A program made the position numbers and the translations under genes. From Aureimonas ureilytica (GTDB taxonomy: Bacteria > Pseudomonadota > Alphaproteobacteria > Rhizobiales > Rhizobiaceae): 64,000 bases of DNA. Each line of letters begins with the position of its first letter. Position 1 is the stretch's first letter. This document shows, piece after piece, positions 46,035-53,859 of this stretch. The notes beneath the pieces are model-generated. The model did not search any database, had not been told where the DNA came from, and worked only from the letters and a program-made list of their open reading frames with translations. The DNA lies in the NCBI RefSeq assembly GCF_001475935.1, contig NZ_LDQA01000013.1, positions 18,656 through 82,655 on the forward strand. Direction: 5' to 3'.

Positions 46035-46300
46035 CGGGCCTCGAAAACGACCTTATACGTCACGATCTTATAGGGCATGTCCGATACGTCGGATAGCTGG
46101 TTTCTGATCAGCCTCTGCGGAGCCTGTCCTTAAACGATCGATTTAGTGCAGTTCATGTTGGAGCGAACTGGGTAATTTAGCCGTCTTAAGGCTTTTGCAC
46201 GTCGACGCACCGGATGCGATATTGTGCACCATTTGGGCGATTTGGCACATATGTCAGGAAATGGGCCAGAAAAGTTCGAAGTAGATTGAAGGTATGGGTG

Positions 46301-46549
46301 ATGGCTGCTGCAAAAGGTAAGATCGTAGAAGGTGGACGTGTGATCCTGCCCGCCGCGTTTCGCAAATCCATGGGTCTGGCGAAAGGCGATACCGTCCTGA
46401 TCGAACTGCATGGCGAGGAGCTTCGCATTCGCCCCGCACGCTCTGCCCTACGGCGTTTGCAGGACAAGCTGAGGGACTATGCCCCCGAAAACGGATCGGT
46501 CGCAGATGAGCTGATTGCCGATCGTCGGCAGGAAGCGGCTGGCGAGTAA
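46301..46549 (+). CDS. AbrB/MazE-type antitoxin (VapB-like)
   Basis: 82 residues from the ATG at 46301. The swapped-hairpin DNA-binding N terminus reads G-K-I-V-E-G-G-R-V-I-L-P-A-A-F-R-K-S-M-G-L, and the rest is a toxin-neutralising tail. It lies 3 bp before the PIN-domain toxin gene. An imperfect inverted repeat (TTGTGCACCA / TTTGGCACAT) at about 46223-46250 may be the operator. Confidence 0.85.
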   Translation: MAAAKGKIVEGGRVILPAAFRKSMGLAKGDTVLIELHGEELRIRPARSALRRLQDKLRDYAPENGSVADELIADRRQEAAGE

Positions 46550-46552
46550 GGC

Positions 46553-46939
46553 ATGGCCTGCGTTCTCGATGCCTCCGCCGTCCTGTGTTTGCTGTTTTCC
46601 GAGAAGGGTGCCGAGAAGGTCGAAGCCCGTCTTGGTGATGCCAGTATCTCGGTCGTCAACTACACCGAGGTTCTTTCCAAGCTCGTTGATCGCGGGCTCA
46701 ATGCCGAGGAGGCGATCCGGGATCTGTCAGATCTCGACATCACCGTTCTGCCGGTCGGCCAAGAGGTCGCGGAAGAAGCGGCCCGATTGCTTAGCTTGTC
46801 GAAGGAAGCCGGGCTGTCGCTGGGCGATCGCTTCTGCTTGGCGCTCGCCCGCAGCCTCGACGTCCCAGCCCTGACCACAGATCGGGCTTGGAAGGACATC
46901 GCTAAACCCGCTGGGGTTAAGGTCGAGCTCGTCCGTTGA
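46553..46939 (+). CDS. PIN-domain toxin (VapC-like)
   Basis: 128 residues. PIN acidic residues are present: V-L-D-A-S-A-V, N-Y-T-E-V, L-G-D-R-F-C-L-A and T-T-D-R-A-W. VapC toxins cut tRNA or rRNA when free of antitoxin. The complete acidic set suggests an active toxin. Confidence 0.88.
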   Translation: MACVLDASAVLCLLFSEKGAEKVEARLGDASISVVNYTEVLSKLVDRGLNAEEAIRDLSDLDITVLPVGQEVAEEAARLLSLSKEAGLSLGDRFCLALARSLDVPALTTDRAWKDIAKPAGVKVELVR

Positions 46940-46964: not shown

Positions 46965-48020
46965 ATGACGAGACGCAAGACGCCAGTGGCCAGCGAGCAG
47001 TCCGTACAGATCGATCTGTTCGGAGGCACCTCTTCCCTGCGCCATCCGCGCAAGGAACCTCATTCACCTGCCCCCATGCGTCGTATTCCGACCGCCAAGA
47101 CGACGGCGTCCGCGGCACCGCAGCCCGAGGTTGAGGCGGCCATGGTTGAGTGTTTGGAGCACACCGGTCGCTACCGCGTCTTGCGCAAGCTCGCGCCGCG
47201 CGAGGTCAAACCTCACCTTCATCCCCCGGCCGATCGCGCGCCGGGCTCCTGGCCACGCCTCGGCGTGATCCTCGACACGGAGACGACCGGCCTCGACCAC
47301 GCCGCGCACGAGGTGATCGAGCTTGGCATGGTCGCGTTCACCTATGACGAAGCGGGCGTGTGCGACGTCGTCTGCGTGTTCTCTCAGTTGCAGCAGCCGG
47401 CGGGGCCTATCACGCCTGACATCACGAGGATCACCGGCATCACGGACGAGATGGTCGCCGGGCAGCGGATCGACGTCGAGGCGGTTCGCCGCTTCGTCGA
47501 GCCCGCCGATCTCGTGATCGCGCACAACGCGCGCTTCGACCGCCCCTTCTGCGAGAAGCTCTGCCACGGGTTCGAGGCCAAGCCCTGGGCCTGCTCGGTG
47601 TCGGAGGTGGATTGGACAGCGCTCGGCTTCGAGGGGACCAAGCTCGGCTATCTCGTCGGCCAATGCGGCTATTTCCACAACGGGCACCGGGCGGTGGACG
47701 ACTGCCACGCGCTGCTCGAAGTCCTTGCCCAACCGTCGCGAACAGGGGCAGAGCCCGCTTTCCGCCAGCTTCTGTCCTCGGCCGCTTCCGCGCGCCTTCG
47801 CGTGCACGCGCTCGGCTCGCCCTTCCACACCAAGGACATTCTCAAGGCACGAGGTTATCGCTGGAGCGACGGAACGGGACGCCAGCCGAAATGCTGGTGG
47901 CGCGAGATCGCGGAAGACGCGATGGACGAGGAAGCACACTTTCTGGAAACCGAGGTCTATGCCGGCGGCATGAACGCCCATGTCGAGCGCCTCACCGCTT
48001 GCGAGCGGTTCAAGGCATAG
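46965..48020 (+). CDS. DEDDh 3'-5' exonuclease (DnaQ/epsilon-like)
   Basis: 351 residues. The exonuclease core starts near residue 100: I-L-D-T-E-T-T-G-L-D, H-N-A-R-F-D-R-P-F and H-R-A-V-D-D. A C-terminal domain rich in Trp and acidic residues (DILKARGYRWSDGTGRQPKCWWREI) follows. Near the N terminus V-Q-I-D-L-F-G-G matches the pentapeptide clamp-binding pattern Q-x-D-L-F. It could be a repair or plasmid-borne proofreading nuclease. It begins 25 bp after the toxin gene. Confidence 0.85.
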   Translation: MTRRKTPVASEQSVQIDLFGGTSSLRHPRKEPHSPAPMRRIPTAKTTASAAPQPEVEAAMVECLEHTGRYRVLRKLAPREVKPHLHPPADRAPGSWPRLGVILDTETTGLDHAAHEVIELGMVAFTYDEAGVCDVVCVFSQLQQPAGPITPDITRITGITDEMVAGQRIDVEAVRRFVEPADLVIAHNARFDRPFCEKLCHGFEAKPWACSVSEVDWTALGFEGTKLGYLVGQCGYFHNGHRAVDDCHALLEVLAQPSRTGAEPAFRQLLSSAASARLRVHALGSPFHTKDILKARGYRWSDGTGRQPKCWWREIAEDAMDEEAHFLETEVYAGGMNAHVERLTACERFKA

Positions 48021-48084: not shown

Positions 48085-48196
48085 GGCAGCTAAGCGCCCA
48101 TCCCCGTCGTTCAGCCCACGTGCGACCTGTCTTCAAAGCTGCCGTTCATTCAGCGCCGCTGAATGGTTTTGCAAGAACCACTCCCGTGAACGGCAG
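48085..48196. repeat. Degenerate intergenic repeat, copy A
   Basis: GGCAGCTAAGCGC (48085-48097) followed by CTGCCGTTC (48139-48147) and its inverse GAACGGCAG (48188-48196). The first two elements recur at 50603-50686. The surrounding gap (48021-48434) has no supported gene. A third partial CTGCCGTCC lies at about 48347. Confidence 0.4.
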
Positions 48197-48434: not shown

Positions 48435-49625
48435 ATGGCCATGACTGAGGGAGTTGGTGTGCACCTGCCCGTAGCTAGCAGTAAAGCGATCCTGGGCCAC
48501 GAGGGTGAGATGCTGGTATCGTTGGCGGTGGCGAAGGCCGGGCATCACTATCGCCCAAACTCTGGACTGGACTTCGGTGTCGACGGCCGCATCGAAATAC
48601 TCCGCCCTGACGGGAAGCAGATGGTCGCGACGGGTCGTGAAATCGCCGTCCAGTCGAAGCGGGGTAAGGGCGTGATGCAGTCAACGCGCTACGGGCGAAC
48701 CTACTACTTCTCCGAAGCTCATGCCAACTACTGGCTAGGTCATTCCCTTCCAGTAATCGTCGCGCACTCTTGGGAGGGGGACGCCGTCCGCTGGGCACCG
48801 GTGACGACCGACACGGTGCGAAAGACAGAGCACGGATATGCTATCGATCTGCCCGAATACAGCGATCTCGCGTCCGCTGGAACGGAGCTTGCCAAGCTCG
48901 CCGATCCTACTGCCCGGAAGGCCTCGGGAGCTCGCACGGAGACTTTTCTCATCAGAGTCTCCATTCACGGCGACCTCACCGATGATCCCGAGGAAATCGG
49001 ACTGGGGGCACTCGAAACCTCCCGGAAGATGATCCGCGGCGTCAGTGCAACGGTGGAAGTGGAGCTCGAGGGAACTGACATTCTGATAGCGGAACTCGAC
49101 ACGCTCGCCGACCTGGAGTCGCCGGACGGCAATGCGCGCCGTCGCCGGATGCAGTTCGAAGATGCACTCGCTGCTTACCGCTCTAAAGCGGACTTCCTTA
49201 CGCGAGCGGTCTCTCTGCTCCTCGGAAGCAAGGAACTGATGGAGTTCTTCGGCAACGATGATCATGCGTTGACAGACGCCTTAGTCACACTTCTCCGCGA
49301 CCAAGCCAGGAGAGACGGTGATCGCACCGCGCTGCAGACCTGGCCCGGGTCACGCCAGCACGCGCTCGTGGTCGGCTTCGACGTAAATCGGGCGGAGCTG
49401 AACGAGATGTTCGCTCGCGCGCCTGAGCTCGCCGGTACGTTTAGACTCGCCGACGCCAGCGGTTTCCTCGTAAGGGATTTACCGCGTTCGGCGATCCAAT
49501 CAGGACTGCTTCCACGCTTGGCTCGCCGCTTCGTCAATTACGCGATCACCACCGGCATGGCTGATCACGAGGTACTGTCGTCTTCCCGCATGGACCTCGA
49601 AAATTGGATGGTCGGTCTTGCCTGA
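48435..49625 (+). CDS. DUF4365-like nuclease-fold protein, partner of the next gene
   Basis: About 396 residues; starts at 48435 or 48441, the latter better placed after AAGAGGGA. Residues about 20-160 fit DUF4365: I-L-G-H-E-G-E-M-L-V, G-L-D-F-G-V-D-G-R-I-E-I, A-V-Q-S-K-R-G and P-V-I-V-A-H-S-W, W-A-P-V. The E...D-x(3)-E...Q-x-K series resembles a PD-(D/E)XK nuclease core. The C-terminal 240 residues match nothing I know. It overlaps the DUF3800-like gene by 8 bp. Lower GC and flanking repeats suggest horizontal origin. Possible anti-phage function (inference). Confidence 0.65.
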   Translation: MAMTEGVGVHLPVASSKAILGHEGEMLVSLAVAKAGHHYRPNSGLDFGVDGRIEILRPDGKQMVATGREIAVQSKRGKGVMQSTRYGRTYYFSEAHANYWLGHSLPVIVAHSWEGDAVRWAPVTTDTVRKTEHGYAIDLPEYSDLASAGTELAKLADPTARKASGARTETFLIRVSIHGDLTDDPEEIGLGALETSRKMIRGVSATVEVELEGTDILIAELDTLADLESPDGNARRRRMQFEDALAAYRSKADFLTRAVSLLLGSKELMEFFGNDDHALTDALVTLLRDQARRDGDRTALQTWPGSRQHALVVGFDVNRAELNEMFARAPELAGTFRLADASGFLVRDLPRSAIQSGLLPRLARRFVNYAITTGMADHEVLSSSRMDLENWMVGLA

Positions 49626-50475
49626 GGCGACGCGACAGCCCCGGGATTTCTCTGCCGCCGAACTGCATGCGCTTGCCCACTCGCTTCCGCTGGATGGCAG
49701 TGTCGTGTTCTGCGACGACAGCGAGGTGGGCGCCGCCGATGGCATGCTGCCCGACGTGGGTCTGCTGGCAGCGATCGAGATGACGCCAGTCGCCTACGCG
49801 TCCGCAGCAAAACGCCTGACCTCCTATCGCGAGAAGAATACCCTTCCCGAGTTCCACGCCACTGACATCGTAGCAGGCCGTCGGAATACCTTCTGGGCCA
49901 CCGTGCCGCACGAAATGAGACTTCAGGCGTTCCGCGAGGTCTCCACGGCGTTGGTCGAGACCCAAGCCCGCCTTTCCTATGTGCACCTCCCGCGAAGCCA
50001 GTACGAGGAGATGCGGACGCGGCTGAAACAGAACGGTTTCGACCCGAAGCTGAATTGGAAGGCAGCGATGAGGAGAGTTGTTCTGCGAACGCTGATCGAG
50101 GAGGCGGACCGCAGGTCGGCTCCGACATTGATCGTAATCGACCAGGATCGGCCACTGCACGGACCGCGGCTTGTCACCAGCGAGGCGGCACCAAGTTTGG
50201 CAGGCGGGGGTGTGCTCGCCGCCCCCTCGGACCAAGTGATCGGCCTGCAACTCGCCGACATGGCCGCTTTTTGCATGGGACGCTATCTGCGTCGACGTCC
50301 GCGCAACCGGACTATCTCCCTCGCAGGGAACAAGGACCAGATGCTTTTGATCGCCTCGGAAGGTGACGACGAGCGTGCGCGCGACACGATCGCTGGACTC
50401 GAAGGCTTTGACGGAGTGGTGATCGAGACGGTGGCGGCCTTCGCGGGCCGCACGCGGTCGCTCCTGCGTTCCTAG
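49618..50475 (+). CDS. DUF3800-like protein
   Basis: 285 residues from a TTG at 49618. The series V-V-F-C-D-D-S-E (near 30), F-H-A-T-D-I-V (near 80), I-V-I-D-Q-D (near 170) and S-D-Q-V-I-G-L-Q-L-A-D-M-A-A-F matches DUF3800, an RNase-H-like-fold family with acidic residues placed like a nuclease. The first acidic motif reads D-D-S-E rather than the common D-E-S-G. Starts inside the DUF4365-like gene, so the pair is coupled. Confidence 0.7.
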   Translation: MPEATRQPRDFSAAELHALAHSLPLDGSVVFCDDSEVGAADGMLPDVGLLAAIEMTPVAYASAAKRLTSYREKNTLPEFHATDIVAGRRNTFWATVPHEMRLQAFREVSTALVETQARLSYVHLPRSQYEEMRTRLKQNGFDPKLNWKAAMRRVVLRTLIEEADRRSAPTLIVIDQDRPLHGPRLVTSEAAPSLAGGGVLAAPSDQVIGLQLADMAAFCMGRYLRRRPRNRTISLAGNKDQMLLIASEGDDERARDTIAGLEGFDGVVIETVAAFAGRTRSLLRS

Positions 50476-50482
50476 GCAGCGC

Positions 50483-50611
50483 CGTCTGCATCTCATTGTT
50501 GCCAAGACTTTGTCGAGCGATGGCATCAACGAGCTATTCGGCTATGCCGATACCGCGCTCTACCGCGCCAAAGCCAACTGCAGCGCCCGCTTGGGAGACG
50601 CTGGCAGCTAA
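50483..50611 (+). pseudogene. 3' remnant of a GGDEF (diguanylate cyclase) gene
   Basis: One frame encodes about 42 residues ending E-L-F-G-Y-A-D-T-A-L-Y-R-A-K-A-N-C and a stop at 50609. That is the typical C-terminal helix of GGDEF domains (L-x-x-A-D-x-A-L-Y-x-A-K). No GGDEF motif or start precedes it. It suggests that the DUF4365/DUF3800 block replaced or cut a chromosomal cyclase gene. Confidence 0.7.
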
Positions 50612-50686
50612 GCGCGCTGCGTCGGCGGCATCGCGCCCTTCTTAGCCGTGCAGATTGATCGAGCTCGATCCTGCAACTTGCCGTTC
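50603..50686. repeat. Degenerate intergenic repeat, copy B
   Basis: GGCAGCTAAGCGC (50603-50615) and TTGCCGTTC (50678-50686) repeat the order seen at 48085-48147. Together the two copies bracket the DUF4365/DUF3800 pair. The first element overlaps the stop of the GGDEF remnant. Confidence 0.4.
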
Positions 50687-50732
50687 GTGAACTAAGCTCC
50701 GAATCGCAGTCAGAACGACTGGCATCGGGACG

Positions 50733-52568
50733 TTAGACGCTTGCCGCGAGCAACTTGCCACGCCAGCGATCGATGACATCGTCGAAATTGATCTCTCGCC
50801 AATCGGCATTCCACTCCTGAAGATAGTTGACGCTGCGCGAGTGCGGTTCGGGAACCGGCAGTGCGAAGCGGCCGACCGTCGGCATTAGGGGGGCGTCACC
50901 GACAATGAGGAACTCGCCTTGACCAAGATTGGGGAGCAGGTCACCGATGCCGGCGGAGAGATCGGGAAGGAGAGATTTGATGTAGCTTTGATCGACAGCG
51001 TTGGTCAGCCGAAGCGAGATGAAGTTCGAGCATTGCGAGAAAATCGTCTCCGATACCTCCGATGGCCGCTGGCTCACAACCATCAGCGTGACGCCGTATT
51101 TGCGGCCCTCTTTCGCGATCCGCTCGATCGATTTACGCGATGAATCATATTGCGCCCCTCCTGATCGAGGCACGTAGTTATGGGCCTCCTCACACACTAC
51201 CATTATCGGCACGTCGCTAACGTCGCCGTCGACATGGCGCCTCTTTGAATAATGGAAGCCAAAGTCGAAAATTATCCGCGAGATCAAGCTAACGACAATG
51301 CTTAGCACCTCGAACGGGATGCCGCTCAAATCAACGATCGACACGTTGGATTGTGTGAGATAGCCGATAAACTGGCGTACCACGTTGGCAAAGTCGCCTG
51401 TAGTCAGATCGCTACCATCCGATCGTTTTGGATAAAAAAGAAATCGAAGCCGGGGATCTGCTAGTCGTGTCCTCAGTCGAAGTATCAACCTGTCGAACTC
51501 ACCGTTAAACGGACCCCCTTTAGCTTTGGCTTCCTTAGTCTGACTGGCGACCACGAACTCCAATAGATCCGTAAAGTAATGATCCTCTCGATTGTGGATG
51601 AGGGTGCCGTCAGTGCACTTAGGTCTATTTTCTCCCGCCATCTGACTAATGACCTCGGAGTTCATATTTTCGAGGTAATTTACCACTTCATCGATCGAAA
51701 AATAGACAGGCGTGTCAAATGAAATATTGGTAAGAGTCGGGTTGTGACGGCACTTGTTTTGTACCACTGCATGGCGGAACTGAGATATCTGGTTATGTGA
51801 ATTAAGTTCGCTGCTTTCAATGAAGATTTCTTCCAGCTCCTGAGCGTTCATAAGCCAGTAGGGAAGCTGGAGCGTATCGACGTCCAGCAGGTTGAGCGTG
51901 AAGCCCTCGGCTTTTTCGAGCCTGAAAGCCGCTGCGTATTCGGCATGTATGTCGAATATGACAATGTGAGAGTTCTTCTGCGCACCCTTGTGCGCATTCG
52001 CCTTTGCCTGGATGCCCACAACGGTCTGCAGGATTTTCGCGACCGCGCATGATTTTCCAGATCCGGTCGATCCGACCACCGCGACGTGTTTGCTGAAAAA
52101 CCGGTCCCCATCGATCTCGAATTTTACGTCGGGCGCGACGCTGAGCGTCCCAAACGAGAAAGGCGATCGTATCTGCTTTGAGAAAATGTCTCCGAGAACC
52201 GCTGGCGGCGTCACGTAGGCGTATTCCGTCGGGACCGGCAGCGCCGGCGTTCCGCGGGTGAATTCGTCTTCCTCAGAAAGCGTGCCGATCGGCTGAGTGT
52301 CGATCTGGAAGCGGAAGGCGACTGAATCAGCGTCAGCGCTGTTGCCGTCGTCAGCAGCAACGGGCTTCGCGCGGTCGATGTGGGACGCACGAACCGCCGT
52401 GATCGTGGCGAGCAAGTAGAGATTATTCCCTGAGGCAATCAACAGGTATTGCCCGACGCCCAGTTTGGTTTTGTGATTTTCGAAATCTTCGGCGCTGCTG
52501 ATTTCGATGCGCACCAGCGACGGTGAGCTATCAGTTACACTGCCGATGTGGTTTCCGAGATCAGGCAT
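50733..52568 (-). CDS. herA: HerA-type (DUF87) hexameric ATPase, defense-associated
   Basis: 611 residues. An N-terminal HAS-barrel-like part is followed by Walker A V-V-G-S-T-G-S-G-K-S (about 165-173), Walker B M-V-V-C-E-E-A-H-N, sensor-like V-S-Q-R-P and a C-terminal segment with R-F-A-L-P. HerA-like translocases form rings that move DNA. In defense loci they partner with nucleases. Its start overlaps the end of the adjacent DUF4297-like gene by 8 bp, so the two are translated together. GC is lower than the flanks. Confidence 0.88.
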   Translation of the reverse strand: MPDLGNHIGSVTDSSPSLVRIEISSAEDFENHKTKLGVGQYLLIASGNNLYLLATITAVRASHIDRAKPVAADDGNSADADSVAFRFQIDTQPIGTLSEEDEFTRGTPALPVPTEYAYVTPPAVLGDIFSKQIRSPFSFGTLSVAPDVKFEIDGDRFFSKHVAVVGSTGSGKSCAVAKILQTVVGIQAKANAHKGAQKNSHIVIFDIHAEYAAAFRLEKAEGFTLNLLDVDTLQLPYWLMNAQELEEIFIESSELNSHNQISQFRHAVVQNKCRHNPTLTNISFDTPVYFSIDEVVNYLENMNSEVISQMAGENRPKCTDGTLIHNREDHYFTDLLEFVVASQTKEAKAKGGPFNGEFDRLILRLRTRLADPRLRFLFYPKRSDGSDLTTGDFANVVRQFIGYLTQSNVSIVDLSGIPFEVLSIVVSLISRIIFDFGFHYSKRRHVDGDVSDVPIMVVCEEAHNYVPRSGGAQYDSSRKSIERIAKEGRKYGVTLMVVSQRPSEVSETIFSQCSNFISLRLTNAVDQSYIKSLLPDLSAGIGDLLPNLGQGEFLIVGDAPLMPTVGRFALPVPEPHSRSVNYLQEWNADWREINFDDVIDRWRGKLLAASV

Positions 52569-53859
52569 AGGTGGTCCTTAGCTGCAGAGCATATTCAAGG
52601 TCGGAGAGCCGCTCGATCTCGAAACGGTGGACATCTACGTCATGGTGAGCCCAAGGGTCATCCGCGACGTTGACGAGGAAAAGCTCGTCGGGCCGCTTTG
52701 GCGGTTCTTCCTTCACGATGTCCCGGCTGGCAAGGCGCAAACTAAACTCAATGGCGAACGGCGATTTTTTGACCATCGGGCGCCGGAATAAATCATTGGC
52801 CCGAAACGCGGTGCCCACGAGCCCGTTGGCGCAGCGAAGACCGGCATCATGGAGGCGCGTTTCCAGCCCGCTGACGTCGTATTCTCCGACGACCATGAAT
52901 AGTGGAGGGTTCGAATGCAGGTACTTGCAGCAATATCGCTCGACGAATTTCTTGATGAAGCGGACGATGTCTTCGTCGAACTTTTCAATCGCAGCGGGGG
53001 CAAGGACGAAGGTACGCCCGCGCGAATTCTGTCCAAGCGATGGCTTGAGGTCTTCGCGAAGCCGCTTGAAGATCTGGGCGCGTGTCGCAAGCTCTCGGGT
53101 CCAGCGAGTGAAGGTCACCTTCCGAACGTCGTGAAGGGCGCCGAGGAAAGCCGATGGATCAACGGTCCGATCTGCCACGCTGGCTTGGGTAGCTAAATCG
53201 ACGATGCGTTGAATCGCATGGGGATAGATGACCGCCTCGACATCCTCGGCCGAGAACCCCTTGCCGCGTAGTTCATCCAGAACCTTCTGTTGGAGAGCGT
53301 CGGTTGATTGCCCGAACTCGATGGTTAACCGCTTAAGAAACTCTTCGTGATCAACGCCAGCCACAATGCGTCTTATAATCGCTTTGAGTGGATCTGACCC
53401 TGTCCCAAGAACCGTTTCCAGTTCCAGCTTGGACAGTGTGCGGCTGCCACTCTGGTCAGGAAAATGGCAAAAAAGTCGATAATAGACTTTGGGCGTTTGG
53501 CTCGCGTTTTTCGAGAAATGCTCAAGCATAAGCAAGATTGGCTTATATATCTTACCCAGCGTAAACTTATCGGCCTGCTCATGATATTTACACTGCACGG
53601 CGGTCGTGAAGCCGGCCGTCGCCACATCGATGTCCTCGATCGCGCCTTCAATGGTTACCTTGGTGCCAGTTCCAGCCGCCAGGATCTCCGAAAGGTATCG
53701 GAGAAATTGGTAGAGGTAGCCCTTGATCGAATATTCTGCAGTTCTGGCCACGTCCCCACCCTTCTCGGCGAGAATGATCTGCGGCCTCATCTGCGTCAAG
53801 CAATCCAAGTCCGGAGATCGTACGGGGCGGAGTATCAGGACAGCTTTTCGCTCGTTCAC
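52561..53859 (-). CDS. DUF4297/Cap4-like nuclease, HerA partner
   Basis: Up to 432 residues; an internal ATG at 53790 (M-R-P-Q-I-I-L) is an equally good start. Near the N terminus Y-S-I-K-G-Y-L-Y-Q-F-L-R-Y-L is followed by I-E-G-A-I-E-D-I-D-V and A-V-Q-C-K-Y-H. This is the E/D...QxK active-site series of the DUF4297/Cap4 nuclease branch. The rest is helical and unrecognised. HerA-DUF4297 is described as an anti-phage pair in which the ATPase ring assembles with nuclease subunits. Here gene order is nuclease first. Confidence 0.75.
   Translation of the reverse strand: MNERKAVLILRPVRSPDLDCLTQMRPQIILAEKGGDVARTAEYSIKGYLYQFLRYLSEILAAGTGTKVTIEGAIEDIDVATAGFTTAVQCKYHEQADKFTLGKIYKPILLMLEHFSKNASQTPKVYYRLFCHFPDQSGSRTLSKLELETVLGTGSDPLKAIIRRIVAGVDHEEFLKRLTIEFGQSTDALQQKVLDELRGKGFSAEDVEAVIYPHAIQRIVDLATQASVADRTVDPSAFLGALHDVRKVTFTRWTRELATRAQIFKRLREDLKPSLGQNSRGRTFVLAPAAIEKFDEDIVRFIKKFVERYCCKYLHSNPPLFMVVGEYDVSGLETRLHDAGLRCANGLVGTAFRANDLFRRPMVKKSPFAIEFSLRLASRDIVKEEPPKRPDELFLVNVADDPWAHHDVDVHRFEIERLSDLEYALQLRTTYA

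Follow-up and report, generated by a model that had tools for sequence, protein, structure and literature searches.

A pair of overlapping genes in Aureimonas ureilytica (assembly GCF_001475935.1) was analyzed within a stretch of 64,000 nucleotides from contig NZ_LDQA01000013.1 (positions 18,656 to 82,655), hereafter the window. Both genes lie on the forward strand, share 8 bp, and contain no internal stop codons (Table 1). The first encodes a DREN nuclease domain followed by an uncharacterized C-terminal domain (CTD), and the second a DUF3800-type protein. The start of the first gene can also be placed at 48441, giving 394 amino acids, the length of its database copy (P0003). An earlier note on this DNA had proposed a candidate two-gene defense system here. 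Most of what it had described was recovered, namely the overlap, a PD-(D/E)XK-like DUF4365 domain before an unrecognized C-terminal half, a DUF3800-like second protein, nuclease-like residues in both proteins, toxin-antitoxin, exonuclease, and HerA-nuclease neighbors, and short bracketing repeats.

Table 1. Features of the gene pair and its surroundings (window coordinates).
Feature	Position	Strand	Evidence and remarks
MazE/AbrB-type antitoxin	46214-46549	+	Pfam PF04014, E 1.3e-8; upstream flank, outside the pair
PIN-domain toxin	46553-46939	+	Pfam PF01850, E 1.9e-15; upstream flank, outside the pair
DEDDh 3'-5' exonuclease (PRK09182 type), left flank	46965-48020	+	RNase_T, E 4.2e-20; NF006615, 403 bits (cut-off 207)
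13-bp direct repeat GGCAGCTAAGCGC, left copy	48085-48097	+	Exact
DREN nuclease with uncharacterized CTD (396 amino acids)	48435-49625	+	Open reading frame, Pfam, PADLOC, structure model, profile comparison
DREN/DUF4365 nuclease domain, residues 12-163	48468-48923	+	Catalytic D50, Q73, K75 by alignment
CTD, residues 164-396, no assigned family	48924-49622	+	Alpha/beta; structure model mostly confident
DUF3800-type protein, 285 amino acids, TTG start	49618-50475	+	8-bp overlap with first gene; D33, E78, D175, Q211, D214 conserved
Short open remnant	50477-50611	+	Stop codon inside right repeat
13-bp direct repeat GGCAGCTAAGCGC, right copy	50603-50615	+	Exact
Right flank, empty-site marker	50619-50733		Homologous to the sequence directly behind the paralogous exonuclease gene
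HerA ATPase of HerA-DUF4297 pair	50733-52568	-	PADLOC HerA, 542.7 bits; NF042944, 599.8 bits (below cut-off 850)
DUF4297 nuclease of HerA-DUF4297 pair	52561-53859	-	PADLOC DUF4297, 125.1 bits; NF042945, 148.7 bits (below cut-off 300)

By profile and by fold, the N-terminal half of the first protein is a DREN collateral nuclease of the type found in SPARDA short-Argonaute systems. Pfam places DUF4365 (PF14280) at residues 23-145 (E 1.7e-13, 51.3 bits, cut-off 24.3), the fold search narrows this assignment to the SPARDA-type DREN, and a comparison of profiles with hhalign gives this half 99.4%. The catalytic D, Q, and K of SPARDA are all retained in the alignment. The nuclease is fused in another way in Micromonospora sicca, where an open reading frame of 1200 amino acids (L012:8001-11603) opens with a DUF4365-like domain.

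From about residue 161 onwards (some 235 residues), the first protein yields only chance-level matches in Pfam, PADLOC, NCBIfam, and PHROGs. The PADLOC profile ends at residue 160 here, and covers residues 1-437 in a SPARDA protein of the same genus. Against ten putative APAZ regions, hhalign gives 0.0% for the CTD, with the DREN half serving as the positive control, and profile comparison with APAZ, pAgo, and DUF3800 returned no match. The CTD is kept across an alignment of 24 sequences, with invariant residues of its own. The VIA and Foldseek matches listed for the full structure model are all taken by the N-terminal domain.

The second protein is matched by DUF3800 (PF12686) over residues 30-223 at 19.6 bits (E 0.0016), just below the cut-off of 21, but the family assignment extends to 37 of the 42 members of its family alignment at E ≤ 0.01. 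Its predicted fold resembles RNase H2, and acidic residues are conserved in it. Two of its closest homologues, P0027 and P0028, carry a hydrophobic N-terminal extension that is not in the window protein, and a VTT domain is weakly matched by Pfam in two members of the family alignment, possibly these same two.

Both genes, together with the short remnant, are held in a segment of 2.5 kb that is missing from a paralogous locus of the same genome. Exact copies of GGCAGCTAAGCGC number three in the 5.0-Mb genome (none for the reversed control); two surround the pair, and the third follows a second exonuclease gene, on contig C143 (88.5% identity over 512 bp). Two of 100 shuffled versions of the window also reach two matches when one mismatch is allowed. 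On C143, the left flank passes directly into a homologue of the right-flank marker (75% over 117 bp, E 5e-17; 0 of 1000 shuffles as good), and this contig therefore shows the site without the segment. The left edge of the segment can be placed only to within some tens of bases, as weak similarity to C143 goes on past 48112 (15 of 1000 shuffles as good). When the two flanks of the window segment are compared with each other, only the 13-mer aligns (1 of 1000 shuffles as good). The gene remnant of the earlier note was found as an open stretch, and its identity drew no Pfam match; we take it to resemble the C-terminus of a diguanylate cyclase (GGDEF), a likeness that Pfam does not confirm.

On the paralogous contig (L066/L077), the PIN/exonuclease paralogue is followed by an open reading frame that looks, by eye, like an IS3-type transposase. 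The contig also encodes a protein of 1814 amino acids with weaker PADLOC matches to DUF626_VIII (66.1 bits) and Avs4 (49.8 bits). Its end (L077:15965-16309) has a translation that looks like sequencing-adapter read-through, so the contig end may be an artefact.

The defense setting of the pair is well supported. Pfam, PADLOC, and NCBIfam identify the antitoxin, toxin, exonuclease, and HerA-DUF4297 genes around it. The last two genes belong to an anti-phage system of two genes that is already described, but their sequences diverge so far that they miss the NCBIfam cut-offs, and the DUF4297 nuclease has no Pfam match. The end of the exonuclease gene is matched at 20 other places in the genus and in its own genome, ten of which, with the longer matches, were examined. 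PADLOC was run on 18 proteins from eight of these ten loci, picked by size and position (L073 and L075 were left out), and defense models above 120 bits were found near four of the ten. A three-gene Lamassu system (LmuA, LmuB, and LmuC at 1109.7, 1282, and 305.9 bits) adjoins the related exonuclease gene at L072:5174-11621 (genome G014). The other three loci show a HamA-like protein with LmuB (L070), LmuA and LmuB at a distance of about 7 kb (L074), and SngA about 3.6 kb away (L076). L077, also among the ten, has the weaker matches given above. Helix-turn-helix and ATPase matches at L068 (best mad3, 86.9 bits) were left out of this count, and the proteins scanned at L069 and L071 gave no PADLOC match.

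The reading preferred here, to which we give a probability of roughly 0.4, is that the pair constitutes a likely undescribed anti-phage module. Its likely output, judged by the DREN half, would be unspecific cleavage of nucleic acids that kills the infected cell or stalls it. It would be a rare combination in which the effector is of the SPARDA type and the partner is not an Argonaute; we infer its function, interaction, and trigger. The two proteins would act together, the CTD and the DUF3800 protein taking the role of the APAZ-pAgo part and holding DREN inactive until nucleic acid of an invader is met. They may sense RNA-containing invader nucleic acid, which the RNase H-like protein would bind or trim as the trigger, and then gather DREN copies. 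Beyond the domain assignments, every step of this mechanism is conjecture. Its most specific form, an Argonaute-free SPARDA in which an RNase H2-like DUF3800 protein and a new sensor domain replace the APAZ-Argonaute half and trigger DREN on the invader's RNA-containing nucleic acid, appears unlikely.

A stable two-gene system is a weaker claim than the defense setting, and this is where the proposal of the earlier note stood only in part. Adjacency is seen directly once, in the window. The second case is deduced from P0004 (71% to the first protein) and P0027 (63% to the second), the closest non-self homologues, each listed with one contig, of 6121 bases in both cases, and presumably the same one. 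Several observations weigh against joint action. The first protein has 22 non-self homologues, and P0004 is the only one that matches any of the 43 non-self homologues of the second in longest-contig size; P0005 (70%, on a contig of 13618 bases) does not, and many of the homologue contigs are too short to settle adjacency. The profile of the second protein's family (P0002) recognizes no neighbor of the full-length DREN-CTD genes in Rhizobium mesoamericanum (L004) or Ferranicluibacter rubi (L005); a different DUF3800 gene (49.9 bits) is divergently adjacent in the former, and none of five neighbors scanned by Pfam in the latter is DUF3800. Conversely, relatives of the second gene at four loci (L002, L082, L083, and L084) are without a DREN neighbor in the stretches examined. 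On plasmid pCasidaAB of Ensifer adhaerens (L002:3916-10139), the relative has a helix-turn-helix regulator on one side and an AspBHI-like/Mrr restriction enzyme on the other, with an AIPR gene behind the enzyme. Other relatives lie next to an OLD-TOPRIM/UvrD pair at L082 and, at L083, to a large protein that STAND matches weakly.

Surveys with at most four candidates scored per genome found full-length DREN-CTD in 1 of 397 genomes of the order and 2 of 394 of the family, its own genome counted. The second family was found in 1 of 397 genomes of the order and 1 of 385 of the class (at most six candidates per genome), and in 3 of 146 genomes of one other genus (at most 18). The pairing, if real, would therefore be confined to a small clade. 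Further points against joint action are that comparing the DUF3800 profile with that of pAgo gives no match (0.1%), and that, of seven residues given as tetramer contacts of SPARDA in PMC12205087, one is kept (E45, as E54 here). The latter is suggestive only as to whether a guide-RNA-triggered filament and DREN tetramer could form.

Many of these distributions would also be expected if the DREN-CTD protein were a self-contained defense nuclease, with its sensor in the CTD, and the DUF3800 gene a separate, loosely attached defense gene. This is the main rival, which we hold to be rather doubtful. As L004 and L005 lack a P0002-type neighbor, the DREN-CTD protein may act alone or with other partners; the varied company kept by P0002 relatives, the single match in contig size, and DUF3800 genes that lie near other DUF4365 genes without overlapping them (L004 and L050) all fit such independence. 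Against it stand the overlap of the two genes in the window, the location of both in one segment missing from the paralogous locus, and the contig size of 6121 bases shared by the closest homologues of both. The overlap and the small two-gene layout, along with the MazE/PIN toxin-antitoxin genes nearby, would suit a DUF3800 protein that restrains DREN in the manner of an antitoxin or immunity protein, with lifted restraint rather than guide activation as the trigger. Such an arrangement is improbable, given that the DUF3800 protein keeps conserved acidic residues that a pure inhibitor would not need, and that relatives of the first protein occur without this partner. The toxin gene would, in addition, come first, which is not the commonest order in toxin-antitoxin pairs.

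The relationship to SPARDA was examined directly. The first protein has the DREN domain with the catalytic D-Q-K, but the sequence profile detects no APAZ region C-terminal to it, and the next gene, rather than a short pAgo (MID-PIWI), is of the DUF3800 type. A pAgo query from the same genus found no match in the window genome (99.5% complete) and found one in five of five control genomes, chosen for holding DREN-APAZ-like genes. With no APAZ match and no pAgo found, two defining features of SPARDA are lacking and the pair, as judged from its sequence, is not a SPARDA system. A complete one is present in a genome of the same genus (G007, L046:5394-8173), in which genes for a DREN-APAZ protein of 443 amino acids and a pAgo of 482 amino acids directly adjoin; Pfam does not match this pAgo at E ≤ 0.01. 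Among the SPARDA controls, an open reading frame of more than 250 amino acids follows on the same strand within 200 bp in eight of ten loci; two of these were scanned and are pAgo by PADLOC, the other loci being assigned to DREN-APAZ from their length and their match to DREN. That the pair is a true SPARDA relic, its APAZ half diverged past recognition and its short Argonaute encoded elsewhere, is very improbable: the strong DREN match and a similar length (396 vs. 443 amino acids) would agree with it, but the method that scores the N-terminal half at 99.4% gives the CTD nothing, the nearly complete genome yields no pAgo, and the CTD is conserved with invariant residues of its own.

A full-text search of 5.39 million papers of the open literature (subscription papers and preprint servers being mostly outside it) returned none that mentions both DUF4365 and DUF3800. 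The earlier note knew neither protein from a named two-gene system with the other and did not connect DUF4365 with the characterized SPARDA system, whose effector it is. If the proposed reading is true, the DREN collateral nuclease would be an effector that can be swapped between systems and is not tied to Argonautes. DUF3800 proteins, whose presence beside effector nucleases in some CRISPR loci has had no explanation until now, would then have a role open to testing, as partners of such effectors. The small size of the two genes makes it easy to test them directly in a laboratory strain.

Among known systems, one of the closest is SPARDA (PADLOC Aga_REase-PNTD1-PNTD2 with pAgo_I): there, too, the first of two adjoining genes begins with DREN/DUF4365, the catalytic residues are the same, and the second gene encodes an RNase H-fold protein (PIWI in pAgo, and DUF3800, as predicted, here). 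According to PMC12205087, an encounter of the pAgo-APAZ part with target DNA gives rise to filaments, DREN tetramerizes on the filament and is active as a tetramer, and the PIWI domains of short pAgos have lost their catalytic residues. The window pair differs in having no APAZ match and no Argonaute, in a much shorter second protein (285 vs. 482 amino acids) that retains acidic residues, and in tetramer-contact residues that are mostly not kept.

Another parallel is offered by CRISPR loci. Cas12a2 is an effector that cuts collaterally. DUF3800 RNase H-fold accessory proteins are encoded with the effector nuclease in type V-A2 (Cas12a2) and VI-F loci (PMC10910872, PMC12669027), whereas the partner here is DREN. 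No Cas protein was seen among the genes scanned around the pair, no search for CRISPR arrays having been made. Finally, the HerA-DUF4297 system, the direct neighbor of the pair, is likewise a two-gene module with a nuclease, but its genes are separate from the pair, on the opposite strand, and of other families by Pfam and PADLOC.
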